Below are positions 32,730 through 42,892 of a DNA stretch of 64,000 nucleotides, piece after piece. The position numbers and the translations under genes are program-made. A model generated the notes under the pieces. That model did no database searches and was not told the DNA's origin. It worked only from the letters and a program-made list of their open reading frames with translations. Numbering within the stretch: position 1 is the first letter of the stretch; every line of letters starts with the position of its first letter. The DNA is taken from NCBI GenBank assembly GCA_002731275.1, contig PCBK01000003.1:62001-126000 (forward strand), written 5' to 3'. This DNA is from Deltaproteobacteria bacterium. GTDB taxonomy: Bacteria > Myxococcota_C > UBA6777.

Positions 32730-33701
32730 TTACATAGATGTATGTCCCTGCGCGAGGATCCAGTCAAAGAAGAGGCGCTGAAATACACACTGACTGTCTT
32801 CGAAGTCGCTAGATTGTACAGTGAACACATCCTCCGCTTCGAGTTGTCCCAAACAGCTCATTCCAAGAGCACCAAACGCCTCTTGGACCCATACACGAAA
32901 AGCATGTTCGTGTTGCCGCTCCATACAGCGCGCAGGCTGCGCGTAAGCCTCTAGGACATCCTCCGCCAGCTCTTGACTCCCTTCACCAGTATGTGCGCTT
33001 GTTTGCAAGATCTTTCTGCGCATGGGATCGATCTTAGAAAACAGTCGTAGTGACGATCGCAGTGTGTACAGACTCTTCTTCGCGATGTCTTCTTGATCGC
33101 ACTTGTTCAGCACAAAGACATCCGGAATCTCCATAATCCCCGACTTGATAAACTGAACCTGATCACCAGCGAGAGGTTGCATCACCAAGTACAATCGATC
33201 GACGAGTTGACGCACATCCATCTCACTCTGTCCAATCCCCACAGTCTCAATACAGACGATATCAAACAGTCGCCCCAACACACGACACAACTGAAAAGTA
33301 TGACGTCCCACTCCACCCAAACGACAGTCAGAAGGTTGGCTGCGAAAAAAGAATCGCTCACTGTGTGCGTCGACGCGTACCCTCACACGATCCCCCAACA
33401 AAGTCCCTCCAGAGAGTGGACTTGATGGGTCGATCGCGAGGACTGCGACCTTAAGCTCTGCCCTCATCGCGAGCAGTTTGTTGGCTAAGACACCGAGCAA
33501 AGAAGACTTTCCAGAACCCGGTGTCCCAGTCACACCGATAAACAATGCCCGCTGAACGCAACCAGCTTCGTCCAGCCTCCGGATCACCTCCTGCCGTGTC
33601 GCGACAGCCTCAGCACGTGTATCCTCAAAGACACGAAGGAGTCGTCCCAAGGGCCATTTCTTCAGTTGTATACTTTGTGCAACAAGGGTCTCTATGTCCA
33701 T
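32730..33701 (-). CDS. meaB: Methylmalonyl-CoA mutase-associated GTPase (B12-mutase chaperone)
   Basis: 323 aa SIMIBI-class GTPase that protects and reactivates adenosylcobalamin mutases. Motifs: P-loop 'GVTGTPGSGKSSLL', switch 'IDPSSPLSGGTLLGDRVRV', 'ETVGIGQSEMDV' and 'NKCD'. N-terminal helical bundle and C-terminal dimerisation arm are present, so the length is normal. It is the last gene of the ethylmalonyl-CoA operon, five bases after the mutase stop codon, which matches its job as chaperone for that mutase. Confidence 0.96.
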   Translation of the reverse strand: MDIETLVAQSIQLKKWPLGRLLRVFEDTRAEAVATRQEVIRRLDEAGCVQRALFIGVTGTPGSGKSSLLGVLANKLLAMRAELKVAVLAIDPSSPLSGGTLLGDRVRVRVDAHSERFFFRSQPSDCRLGGVGRHTFQLCRVLGRLFDIVCIETVGIGQSEMDVRQLVDRLYLVMQPLAGDQVQFIKSGIMEIPDVFVLNKCDQEDIAKKSLYTLRSSLRLFSKIDPMRRKILQTSAHTGEGSQELAEDVLEAYAQPARCMERQHEHAFRVWVQEAFGALGMSCLGQLEAEDVFTVQSSDFEDSQCVFQRLFFDWILAQGHTSM

Positions 33702-33706
33702 CTCGC

Positions 33707-35731
33707 TTATGTCATCTCAAGAATATTGAGGATACGTCCGAATATATCGGACAGTGACGCATCTCTTGGTGTAAAAACGTCCTTCACGCCCATCGATAAC
33801 AACGTCCCAAAATCATCCATAGGGATGATACCACCGATGACAACAGGAAGATGCTCATCTGCACCAGCCTCTTGTAGTGCGTCGATGAGCTGTTTGGCCA
33901 ACGCAAGGTGGGAACCACTGAGCAGGGAGACTCCGATGATGTCAGCGCCCTCTTCGAGCGCGCTGCGAACAATCTCATCAGGTGTCAGACGAATTCCAGC
34001 GTACACCACCTCAAAGCCCAGTTCACGCGCTGTCACAGCGATCATCTCGGCGCCATTGGAGTGTCCATCGAGACCAGGCTTCCCGACGACGATCCTCGGT
34101 CGATGTCCCCGCTTTGTCGCCCACGATTCGACGCGCCCGCGAAGCTGCTCCATCGCCTCTTTCTCAAGCTCGATACGTTGCCCCTCGATCCCCGTTGTGG
34201 GGCGATACTCTCCAAAGACCTCTCGCAACACATCTGTCCATTCACCTGTCGTGACACGCGCGTGCGCACATGCAATCGACGCAGGCATCATATTTTCGCC
34301 CTCTTCGGCTGCCTTGCGAAGCGCCGCAAGAGCCTCTTCCACTTGCTGTGCGTCACGTGTTTGGCGTGTCTTGGCCAACATATCGAGGACAGCTTGCGTC
34401 TGTGACGCATCGACCTTGAAGATCCCACCATCTTCGTCGCCGAGCAATGGCGACGGCAATCCCTCCTCCCAGCGGTTGATCCCGACAACTGTCAATTCAC
34501 CATTGTTGATCTGACTGATCCGCGACGACATCGAGCGCACAAGACTCGACTTCATGTACCCAGACTCGATCGCCTTGCGGACCCCTCCCATCCCCTCAAT
34601 ACGCGCCATCTCTTCGCGGACATCGGCTTTGAGCGCTTCGACCTTCGACTCGATCACTGGACTTCCATCAAAGAGGTCGGGATATTCGAGCAGATCCGTC
34701 TCGTGTGCGAGGATCTGTTGCAGCCGTAGAGACCACTGTTGATCCCAGGGCCTTGGGAGTGAGAGCGCTTCATTCCAGGCAGGCAACTGGAGTGCGCGGC
34801 AACGTGCTTTGCGACTGAGTGTCACCCCCAGCGTCTCGATCAAGATCCGCCACGCGTTGTTCTCTGGCTGCTGCGCCGTGAGACCAAGTGAGTTGACTTG
34901 CACCCCGTAACGAAAGCGGCGATAGCGAGGGTTTTGTACATCATATCGCTGTGAGGTAATCTCATCCCACAGCTCCGCAAAAGCCCTCATCTTGCACATC
35001 TCTTCGACAAAGCGGATACCTGCGTTGACAAAGAAGCTGATTCGCCCGACGACCTTCTCGAATTGCTCTTTTGTGAAGCGCCCTCGTTCTTTGAGATAGT
35101 CGAGGATACCAACGGCTGTAGAGAGCGCAAAGGAGATCTCTTGGACAGGTGTCGCCCCTGCCTCCTGGAGGTGGTAGGAGCAGATATTCGAAGCGTTCCA
35201 CCGCGGAAGCCGCTCTAACGAGTACTCGTACATCTCGGCGATCATCCGAAAATGTGCGTCAGGTGGAAAAATGTACGTCCCACGTGCCAGGTATTCTTTG
35301 ATGATATCGTTCTGTGTTGTGCCCCGGAGAGCAGACAACGCGAAGTCTTCTTCCTCTGCGAGCGCGATGTACAACGCGAGCAGCCACATCGACGTCCCGT
35401 TGATGGTCATCGAGGTGTTCATTTCGGAGAGCGGGATCTGGTCGAAGAGCAGACGGAAGTCATCGATACTGTTGACAGGGACACCAACTTTACCGACTTC
35501 GGGGAGCGCGAGGGGATGATCAGAAGAGTAGCCACACTGCGTTGGCAGATCAAAAGCGATAGAGAGACCATTTTGTCCACGCGAGAGATTCTCACGAAAG
35601 AGCTCGTTCGAGGCTTTCGCGTTGGTGTGGCCAGCGTAGGTTCTCATGATCCAGGGACGGTCTTGGCTCACCTCCCCTTCATCGTTGTAGATATGGTAAG
35701 GTGCTTTTTTCGACAAATCCGTCCCAGACAT
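33707..35731 (-). CDS. ecm: Ethylmalonyl-CoA mutase (B12-dependent)
   Basis: 674 aa single-chain mutase: TIM-barrel domain first, B12-binding domain last. It interconverts (2R)-ethylmalonyl-CoA and methylsuccinyl-CoA. Diagnostic Ecm/MeaA strings, distinct from methylmalonyl-CoA mutase: 'WNASNICSYHLQEAGATPVQE' and 'LPAWNEALSLPRPWDQQWSLRLQQILAHETDLLEYPDLFDGS'. The barrel start is 'RTYAGHTNAKASNELFRENLSRGQNGLSIAFDLPTQCGY'. The B12 domain shows 'GLDGHSNGAE' (DxHxxG), 'GVSLLSGSH' (SxL) and 'VVIGGIIP' (GG). ATG 35731 follows AGGAGG by six bases. It sits between mesaconyl-CoA hydratase and meaB in the operon. Confidence 0.93.
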   Translation of the reverse strand: MSGTDLSKKAPYHIYNDEGEVSQDRPWIMRTYAGHTNAKASNELFRENLSRGQNGLSIAFDLPTQCGYSSDHPLALPEVGKVGVPVNSIDDFRLLFDQIPLSEMNTSMTINGTSMWLLALYIALAEEEDFALSALRGTTQNDIIKEYLARGTYIFPPDAHFRMIAEMYEYSLERLPRWNASNICSYHLQEAGATPVQEISFALSTAVGILDYLKERGRFTKEQFEKVVGRISFFVNAGIRFVEEMCKMRAFAELWDEITSQRYDVQNPRYRRFRYGVQVNSLGLTAQQPENNAWRILIETLGVTLSRKARCRALQLPAWNEALSLPRPWDQQWSLRLQQILAHETDLLEYPDLFDGSPVIESKVEALKADVREEMARIEGMGGVRKAIESGYMKSSLVRSMSSRISQINNGELTVVGINRWEEGLPSPLLGDEDGGIFKVDASQTQAVLDMLAKTRQTRDAQQVEEALAALRKAAEEGENMMPASIACAHARVTTGEWTDVLREVFGEYRPTTGIEGQRIELEKEAMEQLRGRVESWATKRGHRPRIVVGKPGLDGHSNGAEMIAVTARELGFEVVYAGIRLTPDEIVRSALEEGADIIGVSLLSGSHLALAKQLIDALQEAGADEHLPVVIGGIIPMDDFGTLLSMGVKDVFTPRDASLSDIFGRILNILEMT

Positions 35732-35806
35732 CACATGCCTCCTCGTGCGTTGGGGTCTCTGTTATCAGCTCAAGACGATCGGGAAGGGGTGCTTTTTGAA
35801 GTCGCT

Positions 35807-36865
35807 TCAGTCAGAGAGTGTATCCTTGGTGGGGATCAAATCCCAAATGTCGAGGTCCAAAATCACACTCGGCAAATGTCTCATTCGTCCGGGCTTTTTC
35901 GGGTGCTCTTCCTGAATGGCGCGCATTGGATCATCCCATTTCGTGGGATCTTCGTTTTTCACACACACGAGTCGCAAGCGGACAGTTCCCACACCTTTCC
36001 CTTCGAGCGCGACCTTATCGAGCACATCTGTAAACGCGTAGATCGTGTCGCCAGCGTACAAGGGGTTGGCGTGTGTGCCACCGTTGAGACCACACAGGCC
36101 AAGGCGATTCTCCAAACCGTTGAACGCCATCGCGTAGCCGAGGCTGATCGGTAAGCCTCCATATACAAGTGGTCGTCCGTCCGTCAGGATCGCGTCAAAG
36201 TGGACCTTTGCGCTGTTCTGAAACAGTCTCGTAAAGCTCATATGGTCGGAGTGATTGATGGTCATCCCATCGTAGTGGAAGATGCGCTCCCCAACCTCGT
36301 AATCCTCAAAGGACCACGTCGCGCCCGTTGCGGAGGTCGACATAGGTGTGGCTTCGGGAAGCTGCAATTCGCTTGCATCGAGCTGTTTGGGCAGTGTCGG
36401 GATCACAGGAGACGCGAGATAGGGTGTTTCGTCCTCGCCGCGTTTTTTGATCATCGCCCACCGCCAAAAGGTCATCACCTCCTCGCCGCGTTGGTTTTTT
36501 GCGACGTTGTGGACGTATACGATCCCTGTCGTCTTGGAGGAGTTCTCTTTGAGACCGACGATCTCGATCTCCACGGAGAGCGTGTCACCAACCTTCACAG
36601 GTTGCAGCCAGCGCATCCCAGCGTAGCCCAGATTGGCGCGCGCGTTGAGGGAGATGAGACGGACTGTTTGTGCCAACACGCTGTGGAAGGTCAGCAGTGG
36701 ATGGATCCACCCTTCAGGACCACAAAACAACGGTGAACGATCACCAGTATACGCGATGTATTGAGAGACATCACCTGCAGTAATGGTACGAGGTGTTGGG
36801 CACTGGATACGTTGCCCAATGGAAAAGTCCTCGAAGAAGTTTCCCTTCCAACCCTTATTTTGCAT
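35807..36865 (-). CDS. mch: Mesaconyl-C1-CoA hydratase (2-methylfumaryl-CoA hydratase)
   Basis: 352 aa with two tandem MaoC/hot-dog domains. N-terminal: 'FFEDFSIGQRIQCPTPRTITAGDVSQYIAYTGDRSPLFC' and 'ISLNARANLGYAGMRWLQPVKVGDTLSVEIEIVGLKENSSKTTGIVYV'. C-terminal: 'FEDYEVGERIFHYDGMTINHSDHM', 'YGGLPISLGYAMAFNGLEN' and 'THANPLYAGDTIYAFTDVLDK'. This matches, motif by motif, the hydratase of the ethylmalonyl-CoA pathway (mesaconyl-CoA to beta-methylmalyl-CoA). The start at 36865 has AGGAGGCCGCG upstream, inside the 3' end of the dehydrogenase gene, with which it overlaps by 11 bp. Confidence 0.9.
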   Translation of the reverse strand: MQNKGWKGNFFEDFSIGQRIQCPTPRTITAGDVSQYIAYTGDRSPLFCGPEGWIHPLLTFHSVLAQTVRLISLNARANLGYAGMRWLQPVKVGDTLSVEIEIVGLKENSSKTTGIVYVHNVAKNQRGEEVMTFWRWAMIKKRGEDETPYLASPVIPTLPKQLDASELQLPEATPMSTSATGATWSFEDYEVGERIFHYDGMTINHSDHMSFTRLFQNSAKVHFDAILTDGRPLVYGGLPISLGYAMAFNGLENRLGLCGLNGGTHANPLYAGDTIYAFTDVLDKVALEGKGVGTVRLRLVCVKNEDPTKWDDPMRAIQEEHPKKPGRMRHLPSVILDLDIWDLIPTKDTLSD

Positions 36866-38504
36866 CGCGGCCTCCTGACTTGAGATACCCTTTGAGAGCT
36901 TGTCTTGCGACGACGTAGAGGGCGAGGACTTCCTCTGCACCTTCGAAGATACTCAGGACCCGCGCGTCGATCCAATAACGACTCACACTGTACTCCTCAG
37001 AGTATCCCATCCCACCGTGCATTTGCATCGCTTCGCGGGTCAACCACTCCGCGTCCTTGCAGGACAGGAGTTTGACGAGGGAAGCTTCCATCTCACCGCC
37101 ACCCTCATCCATCAGCTGCGCGACGTGATAGCTCAATTGACGACTGGCCATCAACATCGCGGCCATCTGGACGATCTTGTACTGTGTCATTGAATAAGCG
37201 GACAGTGGTTGGTCGAAGACCTTGCGCTCTTTTGTGTACGTCACGGCCGAACGAAGCGCCGCCTCCATCACACCAACCGCCCGAGACGCAGTCTGAATAC
37301 GACCGCCAGCGAAACCTTGCATCTGCAAGATGAAGCCTTGTCCTTCTTCGCCTACGCGGTTGCTCTCGGGTACAAAGTAATCCTCGAAGGTCACACTGAA
37401 GGAGTGCATTCCTCTGTAACCAATCGTCGGAATGGCACGCCCTTCACAGAGACCACCTTCAGGCTGTTTGTAGGAGAATTGGTGGTGGTCATCAGCCGAT
37501 ATCTTCGCAGGTTTTTCGACGAGAAAGAGCGTCAGGCCTTTGTATCCGTCTTCAACGGCACCTGTCCGCGCAAGCAGGATAAAAACGTCAGCACGTCCGG
37601 CGAGGGTACACCACGTCTTTTCACCGTTGATCTTGTACCCACCTTCGACCTTCTCAGCGCTCACACGCAAGCTCGCGACATCGGAGCCTGCATTCGGTTC
37701 CGTCACTGCGACGCTCACGATCTTTTGGCCAGTCGCCAGTTTGGGCAGCCACTCGTTCTTTTGAGCGTCAGTGCCCCCTTTGAGTAAGGCCTTGGCACAG
37801 ATCTCTGGGCGCGTGATCATACTTCCGCCTGCGCCGAGTGAACCACGACTGAGTTCTTCGGTCGCGAGACACATCGTGAGGTGGTCGAGAAAAGAGCCAC
37901 CAAAATCTTCGGGGATGGAGATCCCAAAGACCCCCATTTCAGCGTACTCTTGAAGAAGATCTTCGGGAACAATTTGGTCGTCGCGGTGGATATGTTCAGC
38001 GAGTGGAGCGAGGCGTTCATCAGCAAAGCGAGAGAAGAGCATCCGCATCTCTTCGTGGTCTCCACTGATGCCGTAGCGTCCGCTCCAGTAAGCATCTTTT
38101 TCAAAGAGTTGTGTGGCGACTTCACCCATGTGTGCAGTGGAGAGTTGTGCTGCGATCCAGGCCTCTTCCTCACGAAGAGGTTGGAGCTGCTCAGTAGACA
38201 ACCCAAAGCTCGCCTCGCGAAAGACGATCGTCTGGAGCATGTTGCGGGCCACCATCGCTGTGTAGACACAGGCAAGCGACGATTCGTAAGGTTGGTCGAG
38301 CGTTTCAGCGTACATCAACGTCGCAGATGCAGCAGTATGCTCGGAGAGACAACGCGCGAATGCAAACGCTTCGGGTTGAAGAGTGTCCAACTTTTGACGT
38401 GAGAAGCGGTCATTTTCAACCGTCAGCGCAGCGAGCCCTTGGCCCATCGCGTCGAGAACATGTTGTGTTTTCTCTAGGACTACTTTGGCCTTATCCAATT
38501 GCAC
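36855..38504 (-). CDS. mcd: (2S)-Methylsuccinyl-CoA dehydrogenase
   Basis: 549 aa FAD-dependent acyl-CoA dehydrogenase with an extra N-terminal helical domain of about 150 residues, as in characterised methylsuccinyl-CoA dehydrogenases (usual ACADs are about 380 aa). Core motifs: 'MGVFGISIPEDFGGSFLDHLTMCLATEELSRGSLGAGGSM', 'SVAVTEPNAGSDVASL' and 'GEKTWCTLAGRADVFILLAR'. The C-terminal motifs are 'IQTASRAVGVMEAAL', 'MQMHGGMGYSEEYSVSRYWIDARVLSIFEGAEEV'. It oxidises methylsuccinyl-CoA to mesaconyl-CoA. GTG start at 38504 with AGGAGGGCAAA upstream. Its 3' end contains the ribosome-binding site of mch. Confidence 0.9.
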   Translation of the reverse strand: MQLDKAKVVLEKTQHVLDAMGQGLAALTVENDRFSRQKLDTLQPEAFAFARCLSEHTAASATLMYAETLDQPYESSLACVYTAMVARNMLQTIVFREASFGLSTEQLQPLREEEAWIAAQLSTAHMGEVATQLFEKDAYWSGRYGISGDHEEMRMLFSRFADERLAPLAEHIHRDDQIVPEDLLQEYAEMGVFGISIPEDFGGSFLDHLTMCLATEELSRGSLGAGGSMITRPEICAKALLKGGTDAQKNEWLPKLATGQKIVSVAVTEPNAGSDVASLRVSAEKVEGGYKINGEKTWCTLAGRADVFILLARTGAVEDGYKGLTLFLVEKPAKISADDHHQFSYKQPEGGLCEGRAIPTIGYRGMHSFSVTFEDYFVPESNRVGEEGQGFILQMQGFAGGRIQTASRAVGVMEAALRSAVTYTKERKVFDQPLSAYSMTQYKIVQMAAMLMASRQLSYHVAQLMDEGGGEMEASLVKLLSCKDAEWLTREAMQMHGGMGYSEEYSVSRYWIDARVLSIFEGAEEVLALYVVARQALKGYLKSGGRDAK

Positions 38505-38540
38505 TTTGCCCTCCTGTGCAACAAATGGGTGGAACGAGAG

Positions 38541-38569
38541 AGTGACCTCTGACCTTGCCTGAGGTCACT
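38541..38569. repeat. Intercistronic hairpin between lyase and dehydrogenase genes
   Basis: Perfect 9-bp inverted repeat AGTGACCTC-N11-GAGGTCACT. No T-run follows on the minus (coding) strand, so it is more likely an mRNA processing or stabilising stem, or a partial attenuator, than a terminator. Confidence 0.5.
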
Positions 38570-38592
38570 CCCAACATCGACATAAACGACGA

Positions 38593-39840
38593 CTACTCTT
38601 GCAGGTGAATGTGTTCGTCGTGGTTCACGACAGCACGCAACAACTCCTGGAATGTCAAACCTGTCGCCTTGATATCCTCGTCAGTAAGGATCTCGGAGCG
38701 TATCCCGGCTTGGACAATCCACCAATCGGTCCCAACGACAGCCTTGTCAGCGAGGCGATCGTCATCGACTTCGGCACCAGAGCCAGAGCGCGCGGCCTTT
38801 GCGTAGCTTGCAGCGAGGTCGAGTGCTGCGAGTGCTTCTTGGCGTGAGGGGGTCCATGCAGAGTGGACAGGCTCGATCTGATCGGGGTGGAGGATCCACT
38901 TCGCCGCAAAACCAATCGCGCGTGCGTTCATCGCGTCGCGACGCACGAGCTCTAGGGCGCGCTCTTTCTTCTTCATGGAGGCGATGAAGTCCTCCCCAAA
39001 GACGGCGGTATCAATTTGGTCAGAGGACAACGCGAGCGCAGCCTTGTACTCTTCGACAGAGACACTCTCGGGCTTTTTGGGGCGCAGGGGCAAGGTCGCA
39101 GTGACCGCATCTACAGCATCTTTTCCGTACGCAGCCGCGACGATCGGTAGGATCTGACGTGCCCAGGCTTGGTCCTCTAACCATCCCTCAGCGGTCACTT
39201 TTCCACCGATCGTACGGGCAAAGTCCCATGAGCCAAAGATCAACGATGCGACATCATCGAGAGCCGCGATCTTTTCGACTTCGAGAAAGGCGCGCGGTGA
39301 TTCAAACAAGATCTCCATCCAGATCTTGTTGGTGTGGCCACTGAGACGTTGAACGTCTTTGACGATTTTGATGATGTCCGCGACTTCTTCGGCGTACTCT
39401 GTCTTGGGAATCACCATCGCGTCGAGTTTGTCACCAACGGCCGAGACTACCTCGACGATGTCGTCTTCAAAGTAAGGTGTGCGGATGTTGTTGGGGCGAA
39501 AAGCCACGATGCGTTTGCCGTAATCATTTGTGTTCAACGCTTCGACGATAAACTTGCGCGCAAATTGCTTGTACTCGGGATTATCAGGCGCAGCATCTTC
39601 GAGATCGTAAAAGAAAAAGTCGATGGGCATCTGTGCAGCCTTGTTCATCACCTTCAGGCTTTGGGCACGACCATCTGTCTCGACATCTCCACCGGCTTTC
39701 ATTCGGAACGCCGGAATCGCCATCTCTCCGCGACGATAATAAGGGAGCTTCACCCCATGCATCATCTCCGGTCGAGCGCGATGTTTCTTTTGGATGTCAG
39801 CGATATCAGCACGAATAGCATCAAATTTACTCATCTGCAT
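38593..39840 (-). CDS. HpcH/HpaI-family lyase, probable beta-methylmalyl-CoA / malyl-CoA lyase
   Basis: 415 aa. CitE-like TIM-barrel motifs: 'FFFYDLEDAAPDNPEYK' (family 'DLEDAV'), 'IVAFRPNNIRTPYFEDDI' (catalytic Arg region), 'KIWMEILFESPRAFLEVEKIAA' (Glu ligand), and 'SLIFGSWDFARTIGG' (Asp ligand). In the ethylmalonyl-CoA pathway this enzyme cleaves beta-methylmalyl-CoA to glyoxylate and propionyl-CoA. It is about 80-100 residues longer than typical malyl-CoA lyases, with an extra C-terminal segment ('GLTFQELLRAVVNHDEH'). ATG 39840 follows AAAGGTCTTA; a second ATG lies two codons later. Role rests on operon context and motifs. Confidence 0.8.
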   Translation of the reverse strand: MQMSKFDAIRADIADIQKKHRARPEMMHGVKLPYYRRGEMAIPAFRMKAGGDVETDGRAQSLKVMNKAAQMPIDFFFYDLEDAAPDNPEYKQFARKFIVEALNTNDYGKRIVAFRPNNIRTPYFEDDIVEVVSAVGDKLDAMVIPKTEYAEEVADIIKIVKDVQRLSGHTNKIWMEILFESPRAFLEVEKIAALDDVASLIFGSWDFARTIGGKVTAEGWLEDQAWARQILPIVAAAYGKDAVDAVTATLPLRPKKPESVSVEEYKAALALSSDQIDTAVFGEDFIASMKKKERALELVRRDAMNARAIGFAAKWILHPDQIEPVHSAWTPSRQEALAALDLAASYAKAARSGSGAEVDDDRLADKAVVGTDWWIVQAGIRSEILTDEDIKATGLTFQELLRAVVNHDEHIHLQE

Positions 39841-39911
39841 TAAGACCTTTCGTTTAGAGAAGAACACAAACCCAAGACACATCTTGGGACAATATGTTTG
39901 GACCGCTTGGC

Positions 39912-41066
39912 TTACTCTTCATTCACCTTAAAGCAGGGGAAGTAGGTGAACTTTCCGCTGCCATAATCCTCGGCAAGCTGGGGCACCTCATCGTAGCTGT
40001 AGACGTGACTGTCGACGATCGGCAACCACTCATTTGCCAAGGCAAACTGTACGGCCTGTACACCTTCGGAGTAACGAGCGTAGTGTGTGTGGATATGTTG
40101 ATGACGATCGATACACTCAATCGCACGAATGAACCAAGAAGACATGCCATCTTTCCAACCAGCAGTCGCGATGATTCCCTGCCGAGCCATGGCTTTCAAC
40201 GTCGCACGCAAGACAGGTGAACCGACATAGTCGAGGAAGATATTGACACCACGCCCTTGTGTCAAAGAGTCGACGATATCGAGAAAACGCCGTTCGCTTT
40301 CAAGGTATTGTTTTTTGTAGTCTTTGTCTGTCTTGTAACGATCTTCATCGAAGTTGAGATTGGCGAACTCATTGCGATCGATAGGTGTAATTCCCAGTCG
40401 CTCCGCTGTGTCCTGACGATCTTTTCGCGAAGACACCTGAAATGTCCGACACCCTCGCAGTCGCGCGAGGTGCAACTCTGCCAACGAGACGCCACCTCCC
40501 CAACCCCAGACCACTGGAACAGGGAGTTCCTTCTCACTCATCTGCAAACGCAGCATTCCATACGCCAAACGAAAGTTGGACCACGCAGTCACATAGCGCA
40601 GACTAAACGCCGCCCAGCGCACCAAGTCGAACTTGTTCTCTGCTGGGATTGGGATGACTTGTTTCTGGTGGAGTTTGGTCTTCTTGGCGAGCATCCCAAT
40701 CGTACCGGGAGTGTCAAAACCAAAAATCTTCATGGGATAACCGTAATGATCCCATTGTCCGTTACAAAAAAGAATCGCTTTATCACCCGGTCTAACCGTT
40801 GTGACCTCTGAGCCAACATCCAGGATTTCAACCACACCGGCGTTACCGATCACAACCTTGTCCTCACCACGGAGATGGCAGATGTCGACAGGCTTGCGCT
40901 CAAGCGCATGGCCCATGTTCCCCTCCCAGCAACCGTAGAGGGGCCTCACCAAGACCTCCTCGCTTGAGATCGCATCAAACGTGATGCTCTCATGCTTTAA
41001 CTCAGTGGGTTGGGGATTTCCCTTCTCTCCAGCGTACAAAACCCAAGCTTCGACTTCGTGTTGCAT
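39912..41066 (-). CDS. Crotonyl-CoA carboxylase/reductase-like MDR oxidoreductase
   Basis: 384 aa medium-chain dehydrogenase/reductase, first gene of the ethylmalonyl-CoA operon, where Ccr is expected. It shares with Ccr the layout 'VRPGDKAILFCN', 'IFGFDTPG', 'VRWAAFSLRYVTAWSNF', and a long insertion after the Rossmann core ('YKKQYLESERRFLDIVDSLTQGRGVNIFLD'). But it is shorter at the N-terminus (Ccr about 430 aa), the NADPH loop is GWGGGVSLAE (residues 188-197) in place of GASGGLG, and the Ccr CO2-site 'FEHPG' is FLDYVG (277-282). So it may be a divergent Ccr, a non-carboxylating enoyl-CoA reductase, or a relative with another substrate. ATG 41066 follows AAAGGATGAGCT. Confidence 0.72.
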   Translation of the reverse strand: MQHEVEAWVLYAGEKGNPQPTELKHESITFDAISSEEVLVRPLYGCWEGNMGHALERKPVDICHLRGEDKVVIGNAGVVEILDVGSEVTTVRPGDKAILFCNGQWDHYGYPMKIFGFDTPGTIGMLAKKTKLHQKQVIPIPAENKFDLVRWAAFSLRYVTAWSNFRLAYGMLRLQMSEKELPVPVVWGWGGGVSLAELHLARLRGCRTFQVSSRKDRQDTAERLGITPIDRNEFANLNFDEDRYKTDKDYKKQYLESERRFLDIVDSLTQGRGVNIFLDYVGSPVLRATLKAMARQGIIATAGWKDGMSSWFIRAIECIDRHQHIHTHYARYSEGVQAVQFALANEWLPIVDSHVYSYDEVPQLAEDYGSGKFTYFPCFKVNEE

Positions 41067-41572: not shown

Positions 41573-42892
41573 TCACTGCTGTTCGTAGGCTTCGAACTTT
41601 TCAAGCAGCACCTTGAAGGATTGCACCGCGACATGATCGCGAAATTGCAGCGAAAGAAACCAATCATTAAGCTCTAAAAAGCGCTCCTTTGGTGTCATCC
41701 CCTCACTATCTTTTTGTGTTGTGTCGACGCCCAGATCGAGCAGCCAGGAGATCACGCCAGCCTCCGCACGCCGCTCAACAGCGTGATGGAGGAAGTTTTT
41801 CTCAGGTAACCACCTCATTGACTGTCGGATGTCAAAGCCACACATCATACAAAAAGTCAGCAGCGTCAAATCAGGTTTTTCGATGCTGTACTCTACAAAT
41901 CCGTGCCACTCAACGGCATCTTGCTGGCACAAGAGCGTAAGGATTCTGTATATCGCCTCCGAACGCTCTTGTGTATGTCGCAACCCCTCTAGCAACGCTC
42001 TTGACGCATCCTCCCCGTAGACATTGGTCAATGTAGGGTCGGCTCCCTGCTCAAGTAAAAACAAACCAAGCTCCCACTTCCCTGCTCGCATCGCAATATT
42101 TAGGAGCGCAGGCATGGTCTCCTGGTAAGGATCCTGTTCGGAAGGAGAGACTTTTCCGCTTAAAACCAAGGTCCGTAACTTGTCACGCTCGTCTGCACGA
42201 ATGGATGCAACGGCGTCGTGAAAGTGAGGGTTGGGTGGAGCTTCTTTTTTGCGGTATCTCCAGAGTTCAACATTCTTTGGATACCCAGGAGAGATCGATG
42301 TAAGGAGGCTATCTTTGGTGTCCCAAACACCACTACCAAAGCGCTCGTAGAGATCATCCTCTTCGCCTTCGACATAGGAGATCCAGCCCTGTTTTCGATA
42401 GACGATCATACACCGTAACCAGTCCTCAAAAGATGGATGTCGGATCGCTCGATCGCTCGCGGATTTGTAATCAAATGCAATGATCTGACCAGGCTTCCCA
42501 CCATAGCTGCCAAATGTATCGATGACAACGACAAACCAGGAGTCGATCTCCATAAAAGGCACCCAGCCAAGATGCCACCACCCTCCAGGTTCCCAGGTGT
42601 CAAATGAGCCCTCTCGTTCGTTGACGTCAAAGGCCTCCTTTGAGCCCAAAATCCCCTCAAGGGACAGTAAATGTTCCCCGTCAAACAACGGACGATGAAA
42701 GTACCCATCGAGGTATGAGCCGTTATGCCACCGGTACAGATCGTAAAAACACGCAGGCAGCTCAAGCCCCAAAGCAACACGAAAGGCTTCCAACTCTTCT
42801 TCAGTCGCAGGTGGCGCAAAGAGTGCACGCTCATCCTCAGGGGAATCAATGAATGCCTCGGCAAATTCGCGAACAAGAGGGTGCAACGTCAA
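41573..42892 (-). CDS. SUKH (SMI1/KNR4)-domain protein with C-terminal ankyrin repeats
   Basis: 439 aa. Residues 1-165 are SMI1/KNR4 type: 'ATEEELEAFRVALGLELPACFYDLYRWHNGSYLDGYF', 'GWVPFMEIDSWFVVVIDTFGSYGGKPGQIIAFDYKS' and 'SFEDWLRCMI'. The rest carries about four ankyrin-like repeats ('LLNIAMRAGKWELGLFLLEQGADPTLTN', 'FLHHAVERRAEAGVISWLLDLGVDTTQKDSEGMTPKE'). SUKH domains are common immunity proteins in polymorphic-toxin systems. The start is a TTG (42892) sharing bases with the stop of the upstream gene (TTGA), preceded by GAGGGAGA, implying translational coupling. Confidence 0.85.
   Translation of the reverse strand: MTLHPLVREFAEAFIDSPEDERALFAPPATEEELEAFRVALGLELPACFYDLYRWHNGSYLDGYFHRPLFDGEHLLSLEGILGSKEAFDVNEREGSFDTWEPGGWWHLGWVPFMEIDSWFVVVIDTFGSYGGKPGQIIAFDYKSASDRAIRHPSFEDWLRCMIVYRKQGWISYVEGEEDDLYERFGSGVWDTKDSLLTSISPGYPKNVELWRYRKKEAPPNPHFHDAVASIRADERDKLRTLVLSGKVSPSEQDPYQETMPALLNIAMRAGKWELGLFLLEQGADPTLTNVYGEDASRALLEGLRHTQERSEAIYRILTLLCQQDAVEWHGFVEYSIEKPDLTLLTFCMMCGFDIRQSMRWLPEKNFLHHAVERRAEAGVISWLLDLGVDTTQKDSEGMTPKERFLELNDWFLSLQFRDHVAVQSFKVLLEKFEAYEQQ

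Follow-up and report, generated by a model that had tools for sequence, protein, structure and literature searches.

The question raised by this locus is how an ethylmalonyl-CoA (EMC) pathway, a route for growth on acetate, might operate when the operon that resembles it is headed by a gene other than a canonical crotonyl-CoA carboxylase/reductase (CCR). The window, that is, the whole stretch of 64,000 nucleotides analysed, belongs to a genome (G000) of 10.75 Mb in 200 contigs, 94.65% complete, and has a GC content of about 46-55% in 2-kb steps. We consider it quite probable that its six-gene operon represents the distinctive middle of the EMC pathway, and that the first gene product, here called CcrL, does the job of CCR.

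Organization of the operon

According to the ORF list, the six genes follow one another in tandem on the minus strand, from 41066 to 32730 of the window, with intergenic gaps of 29, 88, 72 and 5 bases and with mcd and mch overlapping, and the coordinates confirm the compact arrangement on one strand described in the initial annotation. The mcd/mch overlap amounts to 86 bases as called, and to about 11 with translation of Mch beginning at an ATG inside the frame, at 36865, which is the likely start because this ATG aligns with the starts of homologues. The lyase, also judged from homologue starts, probably begins near 39834. The parts of the operon are as follows:

39912..41066, minus strand: CcrL, 384 aa, divergent enoyl-CoA carboxylase/reductase-like protein of the medium-chain dehydrogenase/reductase (MDR) fold, proposed CCR replacement
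40917..40919, minus strand: codon of CcrL Asn50, aligned with CO2-pocket Asn81 of KsCcr
40713..40718, minus strand: codons of CcrL Phe117-Asp118, aligned with CO2-pocket Phe170-Glu171 of KsCcr
40083..40085, minus strand: codon of CcrL His328, aligned with CO2-pocket His365 of KsCcr
38593..39882, minus strand: HpcH/HpaI-type C-C lyase, 429 aa, probable beta-methylmalyl-CoA/malyl-CoA lyase with an insertion
36855..38504, minus strand: Mcd, (2S)-methylsuccinyl-CoA dehydrogenase, 549 aa
35807..36940, minus strand: Mch, mesaconyl-CoA hydratase, likely start 36865
33707..35734, minus strand: Ecm, ethylmalonyl-CoA mutase with B12-binding domain, assigned by homology and tree
32730..33701, minus strand: MeaB-type GTPase, mutase chaperone, above the Pfam cut-off and below the NCBIfam equivalog cut-offs

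The gene immediately preceding the operon, at 41573-42892, encodes an SMI1/KNR4 (SUKH) protein with weak ankyrin similarity.

Pathway enzymes encoded after CcrL

The proposal of an EMC operon stands for the five genes that follow CcrL (lyase, Mcd, Mch, Ecm and MeaB), all of which match, and has to be modified for the first, which is no canonical CCR. Solved proteins are named here as their depositors named them. The operon lies far beyond chance. Mcd reaches 455.7 bits in an almost end-to-end match to a solved (2S)-methylsuccinyl-CoA dehydrogenase. Mch scores 260.3 bits against a solved beta-methylmalyl-CoA dehydratase and 254.7 against a MaoC-domain dehydratase. The lyase shows only distant homology to solved malyl-CoA lyases, both conserved blocks being aligned.

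The pathway-specific character that had been claimed for the mutase is borne out by the Ecm tree, which places the window Ecm within the Ecm/MeaA clade, whose members include Ruegeria meaA and CCR-linked Ecms (support 100/99), separated from the methylmalonyl-CoA mutases (support 100/100). The Ruegeria gene is located one gene away from ccrA. Among matches in the plasmid collection, the best 13 are 56-65% identical to Ecm, two of them annotated meaA, and the following rows drop to about 36-41%; identity to alphaproteobacterial and Streptomyces relatives, two of these annotated meaA, is 56-60%. On the same tree, the mutases of five out of seven CcrL operons (G005, G006, G100, G149 and G268) form a clade outside the Ecm/MeaA clade, and therefore their substrate may differ in those genomes. 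The tree also groups the window Ecm with an Ecm-type mutase of Leptospira interrogans (L208:6013-8025), which is 65% identical to it and whose annotation goes no further than methylmalonyl-CoA mutase family; the gene that follows it, annotated as a protein kinase, may be a MeaB candidate.

CcrL and its relationship to CCR

The earlier description of the first gene as ccr-like understates its divergence. Against the CCR model TIGR01751, CcrL obtains 78.8 bits, the cut-off being 378.55, and none of the 23 matches to this model in G000 exceeds the cut-off. A profile-profile alignment of CcrL with CCR spans 365 columns with a probability of 99, an E value of 2.3e-18 and about 21% identity. The hhalign scores are 142.8 for CcrL with CCR, 192.4 for CcrL with MDRs and 416.2 for CCR with MDRs, and single ordinary MDRs reach profile scores of 132-247 against CCR. 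Likewise, the window CcrL gains 71 bits (HMM) against the CCR profile built here, within the MDR range of 57-142. Measured by sequence, CcrL thus stands no closer to CCR than other MDRs do, and the tree, being unrooted, does not decide the matter; because ordinary MDRs resemble CCR more than CcrL does, sequence comparison does not support an exclusive kinship of CcrL and CCR.

The predicted fold points to CCR, with ordinary MDR enzymes close behind. An AlphaFold2 model of CcrL, built from 28 sequences and with a mean pLDDT of 91.7, matches CCR-type structures first both by Foldseek and by VIA-align, where the best nine rows are CCR-type (Z 38.0-34.8) and the next row, another MDR, scores 34.0. 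The closest folds are thus those of the CCRs (TIGR01751; KsCcr 6OWE/6NA3, AntE 4Y0K, CinF 4A0S). Common descent of CcrL with CCR as a carboxylase is likely.

In KsCcr, the CO2 molecule is held by four residues, Asn81, Phe170, Glu171 and His365, as described in PMC10966969. In the profile-profile alignment, Asn50, Phe117, Asp118 and His328 of CcrL fall at these four places. Across 30 CcrL sequences, the pocket consists of Asn (30/30), Phe or Tyr (30/30), Asp (29/30, with Glu in the remaining one) and His (30/30), and across 33 CCRs of Asn, Phe or Tyr, Glu and His (all 33/33). The set is absent from 15 ordinary MDR rows of the same genomes, among which L054, a duplicate of L052, is counted; this duplicate was dropped from the hhalign comparison and from the column count that follows. 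There are 38 columns that are conserved in CCR and rare in other MDRs, and CcrL keeps five of them at >=90%; the pocket Asn and His are two of these five (P = 0.014). CcrL differs from CCR in the Asp that takes the place of Glu, after which the loop is two residues longer, and in its length of 384 aa, as opposed to mostly 413-436 in canonical CCRs without extension. The four pocket positions apart from this Asp, the place in an EMC operon and, elsewhere, adjacency to polyketide synthase (PKS) genes are common to both.

CcrL in place of CCR within the window family

The window phylum is represented by five genomes, all in one family, in the collection searched. The host is not a myxobacterium, and the CcrL-bearing Myxococcota belong to a different phylum; at the level of phylum, the initial annotation of the genome as myxobacterium-like was in error. 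A canonical CCR (571.7-592.2 bits) is present in three of the four other family genomes (G001, G003 and G004), and none of the four contains CcrL at E<=1e-30. G002, 86% complete, has neither a CCR over the cut-off nor CcrL. Since no CCR passes the cut-off in G000 and three relatives carry the canonical enzyme, the window genome possesses CcrL instead of the CCR that these relatives use. The CcrL tree is compatible either with a gain in the window lineage or with a loss in the sister genera.

The remainder of the operon is retained in the family. In G001 and G002, lyase, Mcd and Mch follow the window order with 71/67/57-58% identity, and no reductase gene adjoins the lyase; the CCR of G001 stands alone elsewhere in the genome. 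In G002, Ecm and MeaB (67/46% identity) are located on a second contig that begins with the end of Mch, seemingly the continuation of the operon. Hence the gene order after CcrL, whose disruption in close relatives had been named as an argument against the operon, is kept in two same-family relatives as far as their contigs extend. A block transfer of the front four genes from an L010-like myxobacterium was first considered, because Ecm is 43% identical to that of L010 and the other front genes 60-71%. This idea was dropped, as the lyase and Mcd are at least as near to G001/G002 (71/67%) and Mch nearly as near (57-58%); only the CcrL slot clearly differs.

The metabolism of the host was also surveyed for some of the enzymes that the initial annotation had suggested looking for. 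Isocitrate lyase (PF00463) gives no match in G000-G006, with a profile that detects the enzyme in 8 of 14 control genomes, and an epimerase is found in G000 over the cut-off of TIGR03081 (160.3 bits). There is also a malate-synthase-like protein, with a PF01274 barrel of 65.9 bits in a 706-aa frame. Lacking an isocitrate lyase match and possessing an epimerase and a malate synthase-like frame, the host fits dependence on the EMC pathway. The epimerase gene is located directly after a gene for a methylmalonyl-CoA-mutase-type large subunit (L046:10075-12249, contig C3) that has no B12 domain of its own in the matched range. On another contig of G000 (C187, L198:6918-8339), a hydratase and lyase pair resembles the itaconate-degradation proteins RipB/RipC; such pairs are matched also in G001 and G002, and parts of them in G003 and G004.

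Distribution of CcrL in Myxococcota

The wider sample comprises 377 genomes of the phylum to which G005 belongs, labelled Myxococcota at the named loci L010-L011, with CcrL counted at E<=1e-60 and CCR over the TIGR01751 cut-off. CcrL occurs in 20 genomes, CCR in 54 and both in none, an exclusion that is weak by itself (P = 0.04 when all 20 are taken, 0.11 with the 14 EMC-linked ones). When the comparison is confined to 19 genomes with an Mcd hit of >=490 bits, a threshold chosen from a gap in the list, 11 possess CcrL, five CCR and none both (P = 0.005, or 0.001 if a CCR fragment at a contig end of G135 is counted); this set leans towards CcrL types because the Mcd query was taken from a CcrL operon. 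The remaining three Mcd genomes are G280, whose Mcd is truncated where the contig begins, G135 with its fragment, and G286.

EMC linkage is seen in 14 of the 20 CcrL genomes, so the adjacency of CcrL and mcd recurs in another phylum than that of the window. In 12 of these 14, CcrL is followed by an Mcd in the same orientation, and in the other two (G055 and G192) CcrL or its neighbour reaches the contig end. Ecm follows in seven (G005, G224, G006, G100, G268, G062 and G149) and is nearby on the opposite strand in G133; the contig ends before any Ecm in G275, G055, G290 and G192, and within the stretches examined no Ecm lies near CcrL in G211 and G082. Four genomes (G100, G268, G149 and G062) have the operon reduced to CcrL-Mcd-Ecm. 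A lyase like that of the window (P0005) is not found at E<=1e-10 in half of the 14 (G211, G100, G268, G082, G062, G149 and G290), and an Mch-family match exists elsewhere in the genome for six of those seven, G268 being the one where it was not found. The CcrL family appears to take the place of CCR in several bacterial groups.

CcrL beside polyketide synthase genes

On the CcrL tree, the EMC-linked proteins do not form one clade; PKS-linked ones are interspersed among them, and the root falls on a saturated branch. Relatives with 44-53% identity come from Myxococcus, a Schekmanbacteria MAG, Rhizohabitans, Embleya and Phytohabitans, and are adjoined by polyketide or peptide synthetase-like genes, as are several of the six CcrL genes without EMC linkage in Myxococcota (both judged partly by eye). 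Pfam searches detect ketoacyl synthase domains in five of eight tested CcrL neighbours (L016, L018, L019, L152 and L153), a KAS III and an AMP ligase as two neighbours in L014, and a CoA-transferase next to a Burkholderia CcrL. This pair of settings parallels the dual use of CCR homologues, which likewise serve both pathways according to PMC4606968 and PMC10176493.

Proposed function and competing explanations

Judged from sequence and model, CcrL is most likely a divergent reductive carboxylase that replaces CCR. The reaction order and the chemistry of the EMC pathway are textbook knowledge. In this scheme, CcrL would reduce crotonyl-CoA with a reduced nicotinamide cofactor, and the resulting enolate would be trapped by CO2 held in the Asn-Phe/Tyr-Asp-His pocket to give ethylmalonyl-CoA. 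After epimerisation, Ecm, serviced by MeaB, would form methylsuccinyl-CoA, which Mcd would oxidise to mesaconyl-CoA and Mch hydrate to beta-methylmalyl-CoA, so that the lyase could split the latter into propionyl-CoA and glyoxylate. The carboxylation, its substrate and cofactor, and the flux through the operon are proposed here from gene identities and order, the CcrL-for-CCR swap, residue conservation and fold similarity. AllR of Streptomyces tsukubaensis, although 61% identical to Ccr1, restored no acetate growth in the emc operon (as reported in PMC4606968); therefore similarity and position are no proof of CcrL function.

CcrL might instead be a plain enoyl-CoA reductase that yields butyryl-CoA, with ethylmalonyl-CoA produced by a biotin-dependent acyl-CoA carboxylase, e.g., propionyl-CoA carboxylase. 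The Asp found for Glu171 in 29 of 30 CcrLs would agree with this, as would the sequence comparisons, in which other MDR reductases are at least as close to CCR as CcrL is, and the several homologues adjoining PKS genes, a setting equally suited to a trans-acting enoyl reductase. However, such an enzyme has no evident need for an Asn and a His that are invariant in 30/30 when only 5 of the 38 CCR-specific columns are kept, and the mutual exclusion of CcrL and CCR in the sample also argues against it; we regard it as unlikely. Another explanation would be that the canonical CCR is merely missing from incomplete assemblies and that CcrL has another role in the operon. G000 is indeed incomplete and fragmented, and G002 is without both enzymes, but chance would have had to remove CCR from the window genome and from all 14 EMC-linked CcrL genomes, which makes this very improbable. 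An equally slim chance is left for an operon that acts on some similar compound other than crotonyl-CoA, with a longer or branched enoyl chain, perhaps to supply an unusual extender unit: relatives beside polyketide or peptide synthetase genes and the separate clade of some CcrL-linked mutases would suit it, but the window Ecm sits within the Ecm/MeaA clade, and its Mcd and Mch match solved enzymes of the EMC type.

Overall, the sequences point to a genuine EMC operon, from a small phylum of which little has been sampled, with CCR replaced by a divergent reductive carboxylase-like enzyme, and to a modest chance of more. A more far-reaching and rather doubtful idea is that CcrL could be a second, independently evolved CO2-fixing MDR reductase whose pocket, with Asp, would have its own origin, or else a branch that predates the split of CCR and other MDRs; it would then work alongside CCR in both polyketide assembly and central metabolism. 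The CCR-type enzymes are described in PMC10176493 as the fastest known natural carboxylases and as the core of several artificial CO2-fixation cycles. If CcrL carboxylates, it would offer a new natural starting point at about 21% identity and a direct test of the requirements of the CO2 pocket, and searches for EMC pathways by CCR homology would miss whole lineages. The open-access literature searched yielded no description of the CcrL family.

Comparison with canonical EMC operons

The Streptomyces emc operon (ccr1, ecm, mml, mch and mcd), as presented in PMC4606968, gathers the same five activities in one operon; it differs from that of the window in having Ccr rather than CcrL, in lacking the added meaB and in gene order. 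The same source also places Streptomyces ccr homologues in secondary-metabolite clusters. Closer to the window, the sister genera G003 and G004 (L043 and L042) have an operon that begins with a canonical CCR and also contains a lyase-slot protein, Mcd, Mch and Ecm. Their Mcd is 48-52% and their Ecm 55% identical to those of the window, whereas the CCR has 591-595 aa, the lyase-slot protein 486-510 aa, and Mch is only about 29% identical.

In the sister genera, the canonical CCR ends in two CBS domains (by Pfam in L043:4067-5842 and L058:9731-11518, also in L042, and in L106 by length only), a C-terminal pair that is not seen in CcrL and suggests that adenine nucleotides control CCR. In L043, a DUF6986 protein (L043:5989-7449, 590.9 bits) occupies the lyase slot of the canonical EMC operon and shares 25% identity with the window-type lyase of L195, and a 510-aa counterpart fills this slot at L042:13829-15361; DUF6986 may thus represent a beta-methylmalyl-CoA lyase.
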